A stretch of 64,000 nt of DNA from Prescottella soli (lineage in GTDB: Bacteria > Actinomycetota > Actinomycetes > Mycobacteriales > Mycobacteriaceae), in NCBI RefSeq assembly GCF_040024445.1, contig NZ_CP157276.1:2356001-2420000 (forward strand), in the 5' to 3' direction. The position numbers and the translations under genes were made by a program. Positions 9,803 to 17,338 of the stretch are shown piece after piece (the stretch's first letter is position 1; each line of letters starts with the position of its first letter). Under the pieces are notes generated by a model. The model had not been told where the DNA came from. It did no database searches and worked only from the letters and a program-made list of their open reading frames with translations.

Positions 9803-10405
9803 CTAGGCAATCAGGGCGTAGGTCAGGCCGGCGGCGACAGCGCCGGTGAGCGCACCGACGACCACCTGACCCCTCGTGTGGTCCCCGAGATGAACCCGGG
9901 ACCAGCCGATCAACGGCGTGAGGACCAGTGCGAGCAGCCACCACGGCGACACCGCCAGGGCCAGCACCACTGCCACGCCGGCCGAAACGCCGGTGTGGAC
10001 GCTGACCTTCCAGCGGAAGATGCTCGTGATGACGGCGGCTGCCGCCAGTGCGACCAGGCCCGCCGCCATGAACGCGATCATCTCGATCGGTGCATGCGCG
10101 ACAATCTGCACCACCAGCCCCGCGACCACGACGACCAGCAGCGCGACGATCAACAGGTGCCGCTCGTCGATCTTGGTGACATGATGATCGCCGATCTTCG
10201 CCCGCCGAATGCCGGCCAGGATGATGGCCATCGGCACGACGCCCGCGCACACTGCGACGAAAGCACCCCAGCCGGGCGCACCCACCGAGATGCCGATCAC
10301 CATCGACGAAACGATGTTGACGACCCACGGCGCGCCGGCCTCGGTCAGCACTCGGGCAGCCACGTCGACCGCGTTGCGCCGTTCCCGCACAACGGCATTC
10401 GTCAT
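9803..10405 (-). CDS. PAP2-type phosphatase-like membrane protein
   Basis: This is a 200-residue multi-pass membrane protein. The C-terminal half carries a recognisable PAP2 third motif, WSRVHLGDHTRGQ (SR, His and a following basic residue). An altered second motif KVSVHTGVSAG takes the place of the usual PSGH. The first motif is weak. PAP2 proteins dephosphorylate lipid phosphates or undecaprenyl pyrophosphate at the membrane, or have lost activity. Changes in motifs one and two make catalysis uncertain. It lies alone, 176 nt upstream of the riboswitch promoter of the next minus-strand gene. Confidence 0.75.
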   Translation of the reverse strand: MTNAVVRERRNAVDVAARVLTEAGAPWVVNIVSSMVIGISVGAPGWGAFVAVCAGVVPMAIILAGIRRAKIGDHHVTKIDERHLLIVALLVVVVAGLVVQIVAHAPIEMIAFMAAGLVALAAAAVITSIFRWKVSVHTGVSAGVAVVLALAVSPWWLLALVLTPLIGWSRVHLGDHTRGQVVVGALTGAVAAGLTYALIA

Positions 10406-10768: not shown

Positions 10769-10832
10769 CGGACACCTTGCCGTGAGAGAACCAGGTGCCC
10801 GTCCGACCAGGCACAGAGAGGGACAGCCCGGA

Positions 10833-13800
10833 TTGTCTGCCCAGCCAGCAACAGACCAGACGGATCAGCAGGCTCACGACCTGATGGAACGGGTACCGGC
10901 CCAGTTCCTCAGGTCGTCCCTGGCGCCCGCACCCCGCACGCTTGTCGACATCCTCGAGGCCACCGCTGCGGCCTATCCGGATGCGACGGCGATCGACGAC
11001 GGCACCGCGCCCCTGACCTACCGCGAACTGCTCGAAGAGATCGCGACCGGCGCCCGCTGGCTCGCCGACGCCGGGGTGGGCGCGGGCGACCGGGTCGGGG
11101 TGCGGATGCCCTCGGGCTCGCGCGACCTGTACGTCGCGATCCTGTCGGTGCTGGCGGCCGGCGCGGCGTACGTGCCGGTCGACGCCGACGACCCCGACGA
11201 GCGCGCCGAACTTGTGTTCGGGGAGGCGCAGGTGGCGGCGATCCTCACCGCCGACGGCGTCCAGCCCGGCACCGCACCGCACCGCGCCGTCGCTCCGGAC
11301 GTCCGCCCGCCGACTCCCGACGACGACGCCTGGATCATCTTCACGTCGGGCTCCACCGGCACCCCGAAGGGCGTCGCGGTCACCCACCGCAACGCGGCCG
11401 CCTTCGTCGACGCCGAGGCCCGGATGTTCCTGCAGGCCAACCCGATCGGCCCCGAGGATCGGGTGCTCGCGGGGCTGTCGGTGGCGTTCGACGCGTCGTG
11501 CGAGGAGATGTGGCTCGCGTGGCGGCACGGCGCCGCACTGGTCCCCGCGCCCCGTTCGCTGGTGCGCAGTGGCATGGACCTCGGACCGTGGCTGGTCTCC
11601 CGCGACGTCACCGTCGTCTCCACCGTCCCCACGCTCGCGGCGCTCTGGCCGGCCGAGGCGCTCGAGGCGGTGCGACTGTTGATCTTCGGCGGCGAGGCCT
11701 GCCCACCGGATCTCGCCGAGCGCCTCGCGGTCCCCGGCCGCGAGGTGTGGAACACGTACGGCCCCACCGAGGCCACCGTCGTCGCGTGCGGCGCACTGAT
11801 GGACGGCACCGGCCCGGTGCGGATCGGTCTGCCGCTCGACGGCTGGGACCTCGCGGTGGTCGACGCGTCCGATGCGCCGGTCGCCGAAGGCGAGGTCGGC
11901 GAACTCGTCATCGGCGGTGTCGGGCTTGCGCGGTATCTCGATCCGGCGAAGGACGCCGAGAAGTACGCGCCGATGCCCACGCTCGGCTGGGACCGCGCCT
12001 ACCGCAGCGGCGACCTGGTCCGCCTCGACACCGCCGGCCTGCTCTTCCAGGGCCGCGCCGACGACCAGGTCAAGCTGGGCGGACGCCGCATCGAACTCGG
12101 CGAGGTCGACAACGCGCTCCAGCACCTGCCCGGGGTGAGTGGGGCGGCCGCCGCGGTCCGCAAGACCGCGGCCGGGACGTCGATCCTCGTCGGCTACCTC
12201 GCCAGCACCGACCCGCACTTCGACCTGAAGGCCGCGCGCGACCAGCTCGCCGAGCGGCTGCCCGCCGCCCTCGTGCCCCGGCTGGCGCTGGTCGACGAGC
12301 TGCCGACCCGCACGTCCGGCAAGGTCGACCGCAACGCGTTGCCGTGGCCGCTGCCCGGTGCCCGCGAAGACACGGTCGATCCGGCCCTCAGCCTCGACGG
12401 CACCGCCGCGTGGGTCGCCAGACTCTGGGCGTCGATCCTCGGGGCGAGCATCGCCGGGCCCGACGACGACTTCTTCGAACTGGGCGGCGGCTCGCTGTCC
12501 GCGGCCCAGCTGGTGACGGCCCTGCGCGAGCGCTTCCCGGAGGTGACCGTCGCGCAGCTGTACGACCACCCACGCCTGGGGTCGCTCGCCGAGTTCCTCG
12601 ACGCGCTCTCCCCCACCGAGACCGTCGCACCGCGCCACGTCGAGCCCCTGCCCCTACGCGCCCAGGCCGCGCAGATCGCGGCCACCGTGCCGCTGATGAC
12701 GCTCACCGGCCTGCAGTGGGTGACCTGGCTGGCGATCGCCGGCAACGTGCTGGCGTGGTTCGACGTCGCGTGGGCCCCGACGCTGTCGTGGTGGTGGGTG
12801 GCGCTCGCGTTCGTCCTCTTCATCACGCCGGTCGGACGCATGACGATCGCGGTCGCCGGCACCCGGCTGCTGCTGCGCGGGCTGAAACCGGGCACGTACC
12901 GGCGCGGCGGACCCGAGCACCTGCGTCTGTGGGTGGCGCTGCGCCTGGTCGAGGCCAGCGGCGCCGACAACCTGTCCGGCGCGCCGTGGATGCTGTACTT
13001 CGCCCGCGCCCTGGGTGCACGGGTGGGCCACGGCGTCGACCTGCACACCCTCCCGCCGGTCACCGGCATGCTCGTGCTCGGCGACGGCTGCTCCGTCGAA
13101 CCCGAGGTGGACCTGTCCGGCCACTGGATCGACGGCGACGTCGTACACATCGGCGAGATCCGCATCGGGGCCGGTGCCGCCATCGGCGCCCGCTCGACGC
13201 TGCTGCCCGGCGCCCGGATCGGCCGCGGTGCCGAGGTCGCCCCGGGTTCGGCGGTGTTCGGGAAGGTCAAGGCCGGCCAGCACTGGGCCGGCTCGCCCGC
13301 CGTCAAGGTCGGCAAGGCGACGCACCCGTGGCCCGATCACACGCCGCGGCGCGCCACGCGCTGGGTCCCGATCTTCGGCGTCACCTCCGTCGTGCTCGCG
13401 GGCATGCCGATCTTCGGCCTGGCCGCCGGCCTGATCCTGATCGGGTGGTGGGTTCGTGACGCCGCCGACCTCGGCGACGCGTTCCGGCGGGCGCTGGCGA
13501 TCCTGCCCGTCGCGTCCCTGCTGAGCCTGTTCGTCTTCGCGGCCCTGACCGTGATCGCCGTGCGACTGCTGTCAATCGGGCTCACCGAGGGATACCACCC
13601 GGTGCGCAGCCGCGTCGGCTGGCAGGCGTGGGCCACCGAGCGCCTCATGGACTCGGCCCGCACGTTCCTGTTCCCGCTGTACGCGAGTCTGCTGACGCCG
13701 CTCTGGCTGAAGCTGCTGGGCGCCAAGGTGGGCCGCGACACCGAGATCTCGACGGCGCTCGTGCTCCCCAAGTTCACGACGGTCGCCGACGGCGCATTCC

Positions 13801-14765
13801 TCGCCGACGACACGATGGTCGCGAGCTACGAACTCGGCGGCGGCTGGATGCGCATCGAACCGGCCAAGGTCGGCAAGCGCGCGTTCCTGGGTAACTCCGG
13901 CATGGCCGGACCCGGCCGGCGCGTCCCCAAGAACGGCCTGGTCGCGGTGCTGTCGGCGGCCCCGAGCAAGGCGAAGTCGGGATCGTCGTGGCTGGGCAGC
14001 CCGCCGGTCCGGTTGCGCCGGGCCGCGACGGAGTCCGACGCGTCCCGCACGTTCGAGCCGCCGCTGCGGCTGAAGATCGCCCGCGCGTTCGTCGAGACGT
14101 GCCGGCTGATCCCGGTCGTGGTGACGTTCGGGATCGGCGTCGGGGTGCTGTTCACGCTGGCGTGGCTGGTGCCGGTCGGCGGTTTCTGGCTGGCCGCGCT
14201 GTGCGGCGGCGTCGTCCTGATGCTCGCGGGCGCCGTCGCCGGCGCCGTGTCGGTGGCCGCGAAGTGGCTCGTCGTCGGCCGGATCGGCACCGTCGAGCAC
14301 CCGCTGTGGAGCTCGTTCGTGTGGCGCAACGAGGTGTCCGACGCGTTCGTCGAGACCGTTGCCGCGCCGTGGTTCGCCCGCGCCGCCAATGGCACCGCCG
14401 TGATGAACGTGTGGCTGCGCGGCCTCGGCGCGACCATCGGCCGCGGCGTGTGGTGCGAGACGTACTGGCTGCCCGAGGCCGACCTGGTGACGCTCGGTGA
14501 CGGCGCCACCGTCGAGCGGGGGTGCGTCGTGCAGACCCACCTGTTCCATGATCGGATCATGTCCATGGACACCGTCACGTTGGGCGCGGGCGCCACCCTC
14601 GGCCCGCACTGCGTCGCGCTGCCCGCCGCCGGACTCGGCGACGGCGCCACCGTCGGCCCCGCCTCGCTCGTCATGCGCGGCGACGTCGTCCCGCCGTCCA
14701 CGCGCTGGCAGGGCAATCCGATTGCACCGTGGACGGATTCGACGGCCGACGAGGGCACCCGATGA
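10833..14765 (+). CDS. Pls/PosA-type non-ribosomal peptide synthetase (A-T-membrane/left-handed-helix domains)
   Basis: From the TTG at 10833 the protein has 1310 residues; a GTG at 10782 and an ATG at 10884 are alternatives. An adenylation domain (about 35-500) has TSGSTGTPKG, FDASCEEMW, NTYGPTE and YRSGD. A carrier domain follows, with LGGGSLS near residue 550. There is no condensation or thioesterase domain. Instead, three membrane blocks (starting near 620, 845 and 1085) alternate with three acyltransferase-like left-handed helix domains rich in hexapeptide repeats. This is the layout of epsilon-poly-lysine synthetase (Pls) and its relatives, which make isopeptide-linked homopolymers. Aligned by eye to GrsA, the specificity residues read D-A-E-S-I-G-T-V-V-K, with Glu at position 239 pointing to a basic amino acid. 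It overlaps the M1 peptidase gene by 4 nt. Confidence 0.88.
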   Translation: MSAQPATDQTDQQAHDLMERVPAQFLRSSLAPAPRTLVDILEATAAAYPDATAIDDGTAPLTYRELLEEIATGARWLADAGVGAGDRVGVRMPSGSRDLYVAILSVLAAGAAYVPVDADDPDERAELVFGEAQVAAILTADGVQPGTAPHRAVAPDVRPPTPDDDAWIIFTSGSTGTPKGVAVTHRNAAAFVDAEARMFLQANPIGPEDRVLAGLSVAFDASCEEMWLAWRHGAALVPAPRSLVRSGMDLGPWLVSRDVTVVSTVPTLAALWPAEALEAVRLLIFGGEACPPDLAERLAVPGREVWNTYGPTEATVVACGALMDGTGPVRIGLPLDGWDLAVVDASDAPVAEGEVGELVIGGVGLARYLDPAKDAEKYAPMPTLGWDRAYRSGDLVRLDTAGLLFQGRADDQVKLGGRRIELGEVDNALQHLPGVSGAAAAVRKTAAGTSILVGYLASTDPHFDLKAARDQLAERLPAALVPRLALVDELPTRTSGKVDRNALPWPLPGAREDTVDPALSLDGTAAWVARLWASILGASIAGPDDDFFELGGGSLSAAQLVTALRERFPEVTVAQLYDHPRLGSLAEFLDALSPTETVAPRHVEPLPLRAQAAQIAATVPLMTLTGLQWVTWLAIAGNVLAWFDVAWAPTLSWWWVALAFVLFITPVGRMTIAVAGTRLLLRGLKPGTYRRGGPEHLRLWVALRLVEASGADNLSGAPWMLYFARALGARVGHGVDLHTLPPVTGMLVLGDGCSVEPEVDLSGHWIDGDVVHIGEIRIGAGAAIGARSTLLPGARIGRGAEVAPGSAVFGKVKAGQHWAGSPAVKVGKATHPWPDHTPRRATRWVPIFGVTSVVLAGMPIFGLAAGLILIGWWVRDAADLGDAFRRALAILPVASLLSLFVFAALTVIAVRLLSIGLTEGYHPVRSRVGWQAWATERLMDSARTFLFPLYASLLTPLWLKLLGAKVGRDTEISTALVLPKFTTVADGAFLADDTMVASYELGGGWMRIEPAKVGKRAFLGNSGMAGPGRRVPKNGLVAVLSAAPSKAKSGSSWLGSPPVRLRRAATESDASRTFEPPLRLKIARAFVETCRLIPVVVTFGIGVGVLFTLAWLVPVGGFWLAALCGGVVLMLAGAVAGAVSVAAKWLVVGRIGTVEHPLWSSFVWRNEVSDAFVETVAAPWFARAANGTAVMNVWLRGLGATIGRGVWCETYWLPEADLVTLGDGATVERGCVVQTHLFHDRIMSMDTVTLGAGATLGPHCVALPAAGLGDGATVGPASLVMRGDVVPPSTRWQGNPIAPWTDSTADEGTR

Positions 14766-16078
14766 AGCCCGGCAAGGTCTCCGAGGAACCGCTCGACCCG
14801 TACCTGCCGCAGAACGGCAATCGCGGCTACCGCGTGTCCCGGTACGAATTGGACCTCACCTACAAGGTGCACAGCAACCGCCTGTCCGGCAAGGCGTCGA
14901 TCACGGCGACGACCACCGATGTCCGGCCGCGCTTCTCGCTGGATCTCGCGCAGACGATGCTGGTGTCGAAGCTGTCGGTGAACGGGCGACGCGTCGCGAA
15001 GTACACCCACCGCGACGGCAAGCTGACGATCACCCCGGCGCAGAAGATCCCCGCGGGCGGCGCCCTGTCGGTCACCGTCCAGTACGCCGGCAACCCGCTG
15101 CCGATCGTGACCATGTGGGGCGACGTCGGCTGGGAGGAACTCACCGAGGGATCGCTCGTCGCGAGCCAGCCCAACGGGGCGGCGTCGTGGTTCCCGTGCG
15201 ACGACCACCCGAGTTGCAAAGCCAGCTACCGCATCTCGATCACCACCGACTCGCCGTACCACGCGGTCGCGAACGGCACGCTGGTCCGCAAGCAGACCAA
15301 GGCGAGCCAGACCACGTGGGTGTACGAGCAGACCGAGCCGATGGCGAGCTACCTGGCGACCATCCAGATCGGCCCGTACGAGCGCCGACGCGTCGACGGG
15401 GGACGCGTCCCCATGTACGCGCTGCACCCCACGGATCTGCGGGCCCGGTTCGACCACGACTTCGGCCGCCAGCCGCAGATGATGGAGGTCTTCGAAAAGC
15501 TGTTCGGCCCCTACCCGTTCGCGGACTACTCGGTCGTCGTCACCGGCGACGATCTCGAGATCCCGATCGAGGCGCAGGGCCTTTCGATCTTCGGCGCCAA
15601 CCAGTGCGACGGCCGGCGCGGCTCGGAACGCCTTGTCGCACACGAACTCGCGCACCAGTGGTTCGGCAACAGCCTCACCCTCGGGGCGTGGAGGGACATC
15701 TGGCTGCACGAGGGCTTCGCGTGCTACGCGGAGTGGCTGTGGTCCGAGAACTCCGGCGGACCCGACGCCCACACCCACGCCCTGCAGGCGCACCGTGGGC
15801 TCGTCGGCAAACCGCAGGACCTCCTCGTCGGCGACCCCGGACCGCAACTGATGTTCGACGACCGCATCTACAAGCGCGGCGCCCTCACCCTGCACGTGCT
15901 GCGGCAGGAGATCGGCGACGACGCCTTCTTCGCACTGCTGAACAGGTGGACCGCCAAGTACCGGCATGCGACGGTCTCCACCGAGCAGTTCACCGATCTG
16001 GCAGCGCATTTCACCGACAAACCCCTGCGCCGCCTGTGGGAGGCGTGGCTCGGCGAGAAGGCGCTACCCGCGCTCTGA
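14762..16078 (+). CDS. M1 family zinc metallopeptidase coupled to the Pls-type synthetase
   Basis: The start ATG overlaps the synthetase stop (ATGA), so translation is coupled. The 438-residue protein has the M1 N-terminal beta domain, a substrate-binding loop region (GDDLEIPIEAQGL, replacing the usual GAMEN), the zinc site HELAHQWFGNS near residue 293 and the third ligand in WLHEGFA 18 residues on. It stops after the catalytic and a short helical part, so it is a compact M1 form of half the classical length. No signal peptide is visible, so it is cytosolic. Pairing with a Pls-type synthetase suggests it trims or degrades the polymer from its amino end; this is inference from the coupling and from recalled pls/pld pairs in Streptomyces. 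Confidence 0.88.
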   Translation: MKPGKVSEEPLDPYLPQNGNRGYRVSRYELDLTYKVHSNRLSGKASITATTTDVRPRFSLDLAQTMLVSKLSVNGRRVAKYTHRDGKLTITPAQKIPAGGALSVTVQYAGNPLPIVTMWGDVGWEELTEGSLVASQPNGAASWFPCDDHPSCKASYRISITTDSPYHAVANGTLVRKQTKASQTTWVYEQTEPMASYLATIQIGPYERRRVDGGRVPMYALHPTDLRARFDHDFGRQPQMMEVFEKLFGPYPFADYSVVVTGDDLEIPIEAQGLSIFGANQCDGRRGSERLVAHELAHQWFGNSLTLGAWRDIWLHEGFACYAEWLWSENSGGPDAHTHALQAHRGLVGKPQDLLVGDPGPQLMFDDRIYKRGALTLHVLRQEIGDDAFFALLNRWTAKYRHATVSTEQFTDLAAHFTDKPLRRLWEAWLGEKALPAL

Positions 16079-17338
16079 CGCCTCCGGCAGGTGTCTGCGC
16101 CACTTGACGAGGACGAGCGCCAGACTCGCCGCGGCGACGATCGTCCCGAACACGAACATCATGGGATAGGTCAGCGCCGGGTTCGTCTCCGCGATCATCG
16201 CCATCACCGCAGGCACTGCGAAGCCGAGGTAGCTGAGCGAGTAGAAGACCGCGGTCAGACCGGCCAGATCGTCCGGGCCGGCGATCCGCTGGATCTCCTG
16301 CAACCCCGACACCAGCGCGAGCCCGTAGCCGCAGCCGAGGATCGCCGCCGCGATCATCGACACCGGCACGGTGAGGACGTGCGACGCGACGGCCGCGACG
16401 GACATGCCCACCACGAGCACCGCGAGGGCCACCGCGACGGCCCGGGCGTTCGACGGGGTGTCAATTTTGCGTCCGACCGCCTGGATCGCGAACCCCGAGC
16501 CGAGACCGATCATGCACAGCAGCGCCGAGAACGCCACGGGCGCACTGCCGCTGCGACCGGTCATGAGCGCCGGTATCACCGCGTAGGCCGACGCGGCGGC
16601 ACCGAACACCCACGGGGCCACCGGGGCGACGACGTAGAGGAATCGCCGGTGCCCGGCTGCCGGGATCTTCAGATCCTGTGCGAGTGAACGGCGCTCGGCC
16701 TTCGCGACCGCGGGCCGCGTCTCCGGCACCCGCAGCAGTGCGACACCGGCCGCCAACGCGAGCGTCGAATGAACAACGTACGCAAGCGCACTCGGCCACG
16801 GCGCCCACTGCGCGAGGATCCCGGCGACGCCGGCGCCGATACCGAAGCCGGCGGTCAGGCTCATCGCGGCGCGGCGGGCACCGGCCCCCGGCCGCGCCGA
16901 CGGGTCCCGGTCGGGCGTCGAGAGTTCCTTGAGCCAACTGCCGCCGACGGCCATGCCCAGCCCCAGTGCGACACCAGACAGGACACGCCCGACGATCAGC
17001 CACGCCGCCGAGTCCGGCCCGGCGGCCAGCACCAGCGACCCCGCCACCGCGATGAACGGGGCAGGAAGCATCAGAGGCCGCCGCCCCAGCCGGTCCGACA
17101 GCGGTCCACCGATGAGCAGCGCCGGCACGATCCCGAGCACGTACGCGAACAGGAAGGTGTCGACCACCACCTGGGTGAAGCCGTGGTCGAGTTTGTACAT
17201 CACCAGCAGCGGGGTGAACTCGTTCCCACCCCACGCCACCGCGAACATGCCCGCCGCGACGAGCATCCACGGCCGCATCCACGTCCGGGGCTCTGTGGTG
17301 GTGGTGGTGATCGTGGCAGTCTCGTCGACAGCCGTCAT
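16064..17338 (-). CDS. MFS transporter
   Basis: The 424-residue protein has about twelve membrane segments and the MFS loop motif GGPLSDRLGRRP after segment two. The loop between segments six and seven is cytoplasmic and basic. The 3' end overlaps the convergent M1 peptidase gene by 15 nt. Its start overlaps the stop of a GntR regulator gene by 4 nt, so the two are translationally coupled and the regulator probably controls the transporter. Substrate unknown; a link with the neighbouring peptide system is possible but unproven, because the genes are on opposite strands. Confidence 0.88.
   Translation of the reverse strand: MTAVDETATITTTTTEPRTWMRPWMLVAAGMFAVAWGGNEFTPLLVMYKLDHGFTQVVVDTFLFAYVLGIVPALLIGGPLSDRLGRRPLMLPAPFIAVAGSLVLAAGPDSAAWLIVGRVLSGVALGLGMAVGGSWLKELSTPDRDPSARPGAGARRAAMSLTAGFGIGAGVAGILAQWAPWPSALAYVVHSTLALAAGVALLRVPETRPAVAKAERRSLAQDLKIPAAGHRRFLYVVAPVAPWVFGAAASAYAVIPALMTGRSGSAPVAFSALLCMIGLGSGFAIQAVGRKIDTPSNARAVAVALAVLVVGMSVAAVASHVLTVPVSMIAAAILGCGYGLALVSGLQEIQRIAGPDDLAGLTAVFYSLSYLGFAVPAVMAMIAETNPALTYPMMFVFGTIVAAASLALVLVKWRRHLPEASERG

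Follow-up and report, generated by a model that had tools for sequence, protein, structure and literature searches.

The 64,000-nucleotide stretch of Prescottella soli analysed here (the window; positions 2356001-2420000 of its genome, a single contig of 5.48 Mb) carries a pair of overlapping genes, pls and a gene for an M1 metallopeptidase, at 10833-16078. We read the pair, with a probability of about 0.75, as a system for the synthesis and degradation of epsilon-poly-L-lysine (ePL) in which the M1 enzyme acts in the cytoplasm. ePL is a natural antimicrobial polymer and industrial preservative known chiefly from Streptomyces albulus. The membrane-bound product of pls would activate L-lysine in its adenylation (A) domain and load it on to its carrier domain, and three C domains would join the lysines through the epsilon amino group to give a short cationic homopolymer. 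The M1 zinc peptidase, which is probably translationally coupled to the synthetase, would hydrolyse ePL and, being leaderless, would most likely act in the cytoplasm to remove or recycle chains that have not been exported; the homologous enzyme of the S. albulus clade carries a leader, and a location at the cell surface is reported for it. The use of a cytosolic enzyme could lie in clearing chains that fail export, or in mobilizing an internal store.

When the PDB was searched with the synthetase, the top match was the ePL synthase 7wew (662 bits; the next entry reaches 412 bits over two stretches), which we take to be the S. albulus enzyme. The A domains of the two are identical at 329 of 490 aligned residues and share the code DAESIGTVVK at 10 of 10 positions, these positions having been set from motifs that were compared with GrsA by eye and then transferred through the alignment. 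The original prediction had read the same ten residues, which were reproduced exactly, and had counted two differences from the lysine code; these are gone, having arisen from a misleading yardstick, another lysine code (DAESIGSVCK). All 80 relatives retained for comparison, the best 80 of at least 593, have DAESIGTVVK in common. An Asp and a Glu of the pocket are reported to bind the two amino groups of the substrate, and a chain-length position to be occupied by Ala in lysine enzymes, Met in PosA and Phe in PDAP synthetase (PMC10522769); the Asp, the Glu and the Ala are all present in the window synthetase. Among other loci, L261, L269 and L270 have the lysine-like code DAESVGTVVK and leaderless M1 enzymes, and L257 gave no code.

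The window M1 has the N-terminus MKPGKVSEEPLDPYLPQ, which an earlier start could extend by no more than 11 codons, and it contains no leader and no 19-residue stretch above a hydropathy of 0.85. Because neither a Sec-like nor a twin-arginine translocation (Tat)-like leader is present, the enzyme is most likely cytoplasmic, and since the leader that would go with a surface location is absent we refer to it as a homologue of PldII and not as PldII. A role for the peptidase in the envelope is not supported by a protein that has no export signal, unlike PldII of S. albulus, for which activity outside the cytoplasmic membrane has been reported (PMC9205021). M1 enzymes were then classified wherever one was present in the window, in the 80 related loci, in 119 stretches from a survey of the window's class and in 63 chosen loci, a leader being scored as a hydrophobic stretch together with twin arginines (RR), from inferred starts. 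Of these 214 enzymes, 22 have a twin-arginine leader, 188 (the window enzyme and 187 others) are leaderless and predicted to be cytosolic, and four, all beside synthetases with a DFEY code, have a Sec-like leader without RR. For the 206 enzymes that accompany a DAESIGTVVK synthetase, the RR leader tracks the identity of the A domain to 7wew, being found in 15/15 at 75% or more, 6/6 at 70-75%, 1/98 (L256) at 65-70% and 0/87 below that. A permissive Tat search upstream of the M1 core, in which start codons were ignored, returned 15 of the 214, all within the leader group, and missed 7 of the 22. Two cases lay near the line: L114 exceeds the hydropathy cut without RR and was counted as leaderless, and L234, just below the first cut, was admitted by the second, which used stretches of 13 residues.

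The leader is matched by a difference in the active site. M1 aminopeptidases have the exopeptidase motif GxMEN, in place of which the window enzyme has IEAQ (15566-15577), the Glu being kept and the Asn replaced by Ala. The residue that follows this Glu is Asn in all 22 enzymes with a twin-arginine leader, Ala (172) or Ser (16) in the 188 that are leaderless, and Thr in the four of the DFEY type. In a tree of 83 chosen synthetases, built quickly and with long-branch warnings, the 22 leader rows, L256 included, form one side of a single branch (SH-aLRT 99), so that one change accounts for them, against a mean of 19.6 after shuffling; its polarity cannot be read. Both forms can occur in one organism, since among four genomes with two fetched copies two hold both (G633, L245 and L271; G761, L237 and L270); in G621 and G735 the S. 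albulus-like copy stands without an adjacent M1 gene. Leaderless partners and the joint split in leader and active site look new: in the literature searched, which lies mostly outside subscription journals, the available text held no mention of leaderless M1 partners or of the co-occurrence of pls and M1 described below.

The start of the M1 gene overlaps the synthetase stop in the four bases ATGA (14762-14765, forward strand; ATG at 14762-14764 over TGA at 14763-14765), confirming the arrangement first described, and the pairing is widely conserved. Of the 80 related loci, 79 have a gene for an M1 homologue after that of the synthetase and in the same orientation, and the remaining one (L059) ends at the synthetase; a start permitting the 4-base overlap is available in 48 of the 79, the start chosen in 17 gives an overlap of 1 base, and in six (L013, L016, L017, L018, L024 and L079) the M1 gene begins more than 400 bases downstream. 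The class survey covered 394 genomes drawn evenly from the window's class, with the two best candidates per genome scored, and 105 of them have a match over the family cut-off. All listed matches over the cut-off other than the window's own were taken as stretches, with flanks of about 4.5 kb where the contig allowed, and gave 119 A-domain rows, some stretches yielding two and some none. DAESIGTVVK was read in 94 of these rows, with M1 in the stretch for 89. Fifteen rows reading DIWQSTADD and one reading GMGYIACPVK were not taken as codes, their open reading frames being just 24-33% identical to the references. Where M1 lies on the same strand (93 class-survey loci), 58 have a start giving the 4-base overlap, 6 a 1-base overlap, 21 another start within 60 bases and 8 a start farther away. 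Conservation on this scale rejects a chance pairing. All 14 genomes searched in the window's genus carry the synthetase (743-757 bits), as do 31 of the 36 genomes of the window's family listed in the survey.

The two genes also occur together when they are apart. In a genus that we read as Corynebacterium (g7), 19 of 20 fetched loci have no M1 gene beside the synthetase, and an M1 homologue is present somewhere in all 20 genomes, 42-54% identical (in the linked case, G857, in two pieces of 51 and 36%). A synthetase was called lysine-type in this genus when it scored above 640 bits, or above 500 bits in two pieces (G863, G875), a line drawn after the scores had been seen and with the code itself read in 20 loci only. 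On this basis 108 of 151 genomes have both genes, 40 have neither, one has the synthetase alone (G854, 77% complete) and two have M1 alone (G840, 77% complete, and G891, which holds only a fragment of the synthetase), so that 148 of 151 are concordant. If any synthetase over the family cut-off is counted, G765 and G792 (510-523 bits) join as synthetases without M1 and the concordance becomes 146 of 151; G862, with a broken synthetase under the cut-off and no M1 match, is counted as having neither. By coordinates, four genomes keep the genes adjacent (G786, G802, G857 and G878). A different peptidase behind pls was considered for this genus and rejected: none was seen by eye in 5 of the 20 loci, and M1 is elsewhere in the genome. 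We note that a gene which, from its sequence, we take to encode a polyphosphate kinase 2-like protein lies near pls in 18 of the 20 loci (L276-L289, L291, L292, L294 and L295) and also in L165, whereas the other loci searched, which did not include L081-L110, have none; this may be plain synteny, but it suggests a link with polyphosphate.

The pair could instead be of the ordinary S. albulus type, making a secreted antibiotic polymer, with an M1 enzyme that protects the producer through non-classical export or by acting on re-imported chains. An operon with a 4-nt overlap is indeed what is found in S. albulus, PldII has been postulated to serve self-protection, and repression of pldII is reported to lower the tolerance of the producer for ePL (PMC9223678). 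Nevertheless, self-protection of this kind seems rather unlikely for an enzyme that, like 187 others, has no leader, when 22 of 22 in the S. albulus-like clade have the twin-arginine leader and the active-site residue differs in parallel with it. It is very unlikely that the M1 is a general cytosolic aminopeptidase that merely adjoins pls. M1 is a broad aminopeptidase family, and the best PDB relative of the window enzyme, 6a8z, is a putative zinc metalloprotease; but M1 stays with lysine-coded synthetases in 89 of the 94 class-survey rows, is tied to the synthetase even when unlinked (148 of 151 genomes in the genus read as Corynebacterium), and far outscores the two other M1 matches of the window genome (1032 against about 60 bits).

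The use of another diamino acid by the synthetase (ornithine, diaminobutyrate or diaminopropionate), giving a different cationic polymer, is highly improbable given the full agreement of its code with that of 7wew and an Ala at the chain-length position, the state of the lysine enzymes, where PosA has Met and PDAP synthetase Phe. What can be said for it is that the family includes members with other codes, among them a DFEYLGTVTK synthetase in the window genome itself, and that PosA is reported to use ornithine (PMC10522769).

Several points weigh against the reading of the pair as a cytoplasmically acting ePL system. The prediction that these M1 enzymes lack leaders is drawn from hydropathy and the RR motif, not from a trained predictor or an experiment, and the lysine code points to L-lysine through homology, not through an assay. 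The loci nearest to 7wew are 93, 92 and 89% identical to it on a 303-residue fragment, and no sampled genome was identified as that of S. albulus; the name Corynebacterium was given to genus g7 from its family and gene content, and the name Streptomyces was likewise assigned. The association of the genes in g7 has a Fisher's P value of 6e-33, which ignores shared ancestry. M1 is absent from the stretch in 28 of 234 loci with the DAESIGTVVK code (19 of the 20 Corynebacterium loci, five from the class survey, three that are S. albulus-like, and L059), and adjacency is thus not obligatory. Corynebacterium variabile in culture is reported to yield no ePL and no detectable Pls protein (PMC8117764), and no evidence of activity, product or expression for any Rhodococcus enzyme was found in the literature searched. 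The reports also conflict on what PldII does to the polymer. According to a review, inactivation of Pld and PldII left production and the degree of polymerization unchanged (PMC8506220), and in a CRISPR interference study longer ePL chains are described (PMC9223678). The original prediction saw the M1 enzyme as a polymer-trimming partner, which is doubtful as its main role, and since the review reports loss of pld and pldII to be without effect, it is probably the synthetase that determines chain length.

If the widespread form of the M1 enzyme does work inside the cell, the role in self-protection put forward for the S. albulus enzyme is not simply transferable, and the purpose that ePL naturally serves in Rhodococcus, Nocardia and their mycobacterial relatives becomes a directly testable question. 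A broader proposal, which we regard as unlikely, is that ePL stays mainly within the cell in all but the S. albulus clade. Synthesis would take place at the membrane and breakdown in the cytosol, the latter by a leaderless M1 enzyme dedicated to it, and the polymer would store lysine and nitrogen or act as a counter-ion to polyphosphate or nucleic acid; secretion as an antibiotic, as in S. albulus, would then be a special case, recognizable by a Tat leader and by Asn in place of Ala or Ser at the exopeptidase site. Such an intracellular polymer with its own hydrolase may be likened to cyanophycin and cyanophycinase. The proposal, if true, could account for the wide distribution of a gene that has proved silent when tested (C. 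variabile), and for the ppk2-like gene near pls in so many of the sampled Corynebacterium loci. The leader and the linked active-site residue provide a simple sequence rule for separating the two M1 forms when genomes are mined for producers.

The pls gene (10833-14765, forward strand) encodes a Pls/PosA-family poly(amino acid) synthetase of 1310 residues, a predicted ePL synthase, from a TTG start. An in-frame TTG is present in the matching N-terminal stretch of six of six close relatives, 3-8 codons nearer residue 18, which supports this start; GTG at 10782 or ATG at 10884 are possible alternatives. The PF00501 match of the A domain covers residues 41-367 (10953-11933), the code being read from D220, A221, E224, S263, I284, G286, T308, V316, V317 and the more distal K497, and the carrier (PP-binding) domain, with the motif GGGS and Ser554, covers residues 527-589 (12411-12599). 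The Pfam scan agrees with the original description, finding one AMP-binding and one PP-binding domain and, among its matches, no condensation or thioesterase domain. Residues 613-1297 form the region designated NRPS_term_dom (12669-14723), with three hydrophobic blocks and three C domains, and match TIGR02353, the Pls/PosA family, at 754.1 bits against a curated cut-off of 423.1. The likeness of the A domain to 7wew places the Pls-type reading on firmer ground than was first claimed. The three blocks (646-674, 853-908 and 1095-1113) separate the C domains, and a further hydrophobic segment (98-116) sits inside the A domain; simple hydropathy makes the three blocks visible but not six clean transmembrane helices. 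The C domains are homologous to one another by hhalign (probabilities 98.2, 98.7 and 95.6%), and the proposed alternation of three membrane blocks with three such domains stands. Their description as left-handed helices holds directly for the first, which contains the single significant stretch found by the Pfam hexapeptide model, and extends to the second and third because they are homologous to it. The closest named relatives of the synthetase are from Prescottella equi DSM 20307 (94% in the tree alignment) and Rhodococcus sp. OK519. Upstream of pls and divergent from it is a gene for a PAP2-like membrane protein (9803-10405, reverse strand), which scores under the Pfam cut-off.

The M1 gene (14762-16078, forward strand) encodes a two-domain, leaderless metallopeptidase of 438 residues, a PldII homologue and predicted cytosolic ePL hydrolase, that matches Peptidase_M1 at 89.8 bits and Peptidase_M1_N at 60.9 bits (cut-offs 27.7 and 25.8). 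Its zinc site, HELAH-x18-E, lies at 15641-15712, and the corresponding HExxH-x18-E is kept in all 213 M1 enzymes checked, that of the window included. The analogy drawn at the outset with the pls/pld pairs of Streptomyces was borne out: a 4-nt overlap of pls and pldII is reported for S. albulus (PMC4361855), and the M1 enzymes encoded directly behind the pls genes nearest 7wew (89-93% identical on the 303-residue fragment) are 41-42% identical to that of the window. In all three of these loci an M1 start exists at the pls stop codon, and in L233 the reading frame opened by the overlapping GTG measures 1404 bases to its stop, the length reported for pldII (PMC9223678). Three S. albulus-like synthetases (L248, L249 and L250) have no M1 gene within 3.3-3.8 kb downstream. 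The 3′ end of the window M1 gene overlaps by 15 bases a convergent gene for an MFS transporter (16064-17338, reverse strand).

The window genome encodes a second Pls/PosA-family synthetase (L142, G000:C1:3579674-3590551; 561 bits) with the code DFEYLGTVTK, which is of the Phe type that is tied to PDAP synthetase (PMC10522769). This stretch contains no M1 gene, and a BPL_N-like gene (PF09825) is divergent from the synthetase. Three of the 14 genomes searched in the genus have a score of this second type over the cut-off, and in G915 such a match is split into three pieces. In family f19, four loci (L222, L223, L225 and L227) have a DFEY-coded synthetase and, some 0.9 kb beyond it, a gene for a divergent M1 enzyme with a Sec-like leader, and in L222, the only one of the four looked into, a BPL_N-like gene lies between the two; no report of the f19 arrangement came up, no search having been aimed at such reports. 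A rule that M1 partners belong to lysine synthetases only is therefore not exact, since four of seven DFEY-coded synthetases, all from f19, have an M1 enzyme, although a more divergent one (360-375 bits).

The window pair is of the already known pls-pldII kind, of which homologues are reported in Rhodococcus, Nocardia, Prescottella and Corynebacterium, including an antiSMASH ePL homologue in another Rhodococcus (PMC11303147). PosA, the delta-poly-L-ornithine synthetase of Acinetobacter baumannii, is of the same CHPA family and has the conserved Asp and Glu that are reported to bind amino groups (PMC10522769). Homologous synthetases of near relatives have already been annotated in Nocardia (nfa3790; PMC4035055) and, as an antiSMASH ePL cluster, in Prescottella sp. 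R16 (PMC10972888), whereas the M1 partner and its location receive no mention in the available text of these reports. Pls of C. variabile shares the family and the architecture, its pocket is reported to be identical or highly similar to that of proven Pls, and it is described in an operon with a peptidase, in a report that also gives homologues in coryneform bacteria and names one from Rhodococcus; when a Corynebacterium homologue was tested heterologously, ePL of 26-35 residues was obtained (PMC8117764). That system differs in that M1 is elsewhere in the genome in 19 of the 20 loci of the genus read as Corynebacterium. The closest parallel in organization is with the pls-pldII genes of S. 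albulus, which have the same gene order, 4-nt overlap and A-T-(TM, C)x3 architecture, an adenylation code as in 7wew and an M1 partner, but close relatives of the S. albulus peptidase have a twin-arginine leader and VENQ, whereas that of the window is leaderless and has IEAQ.

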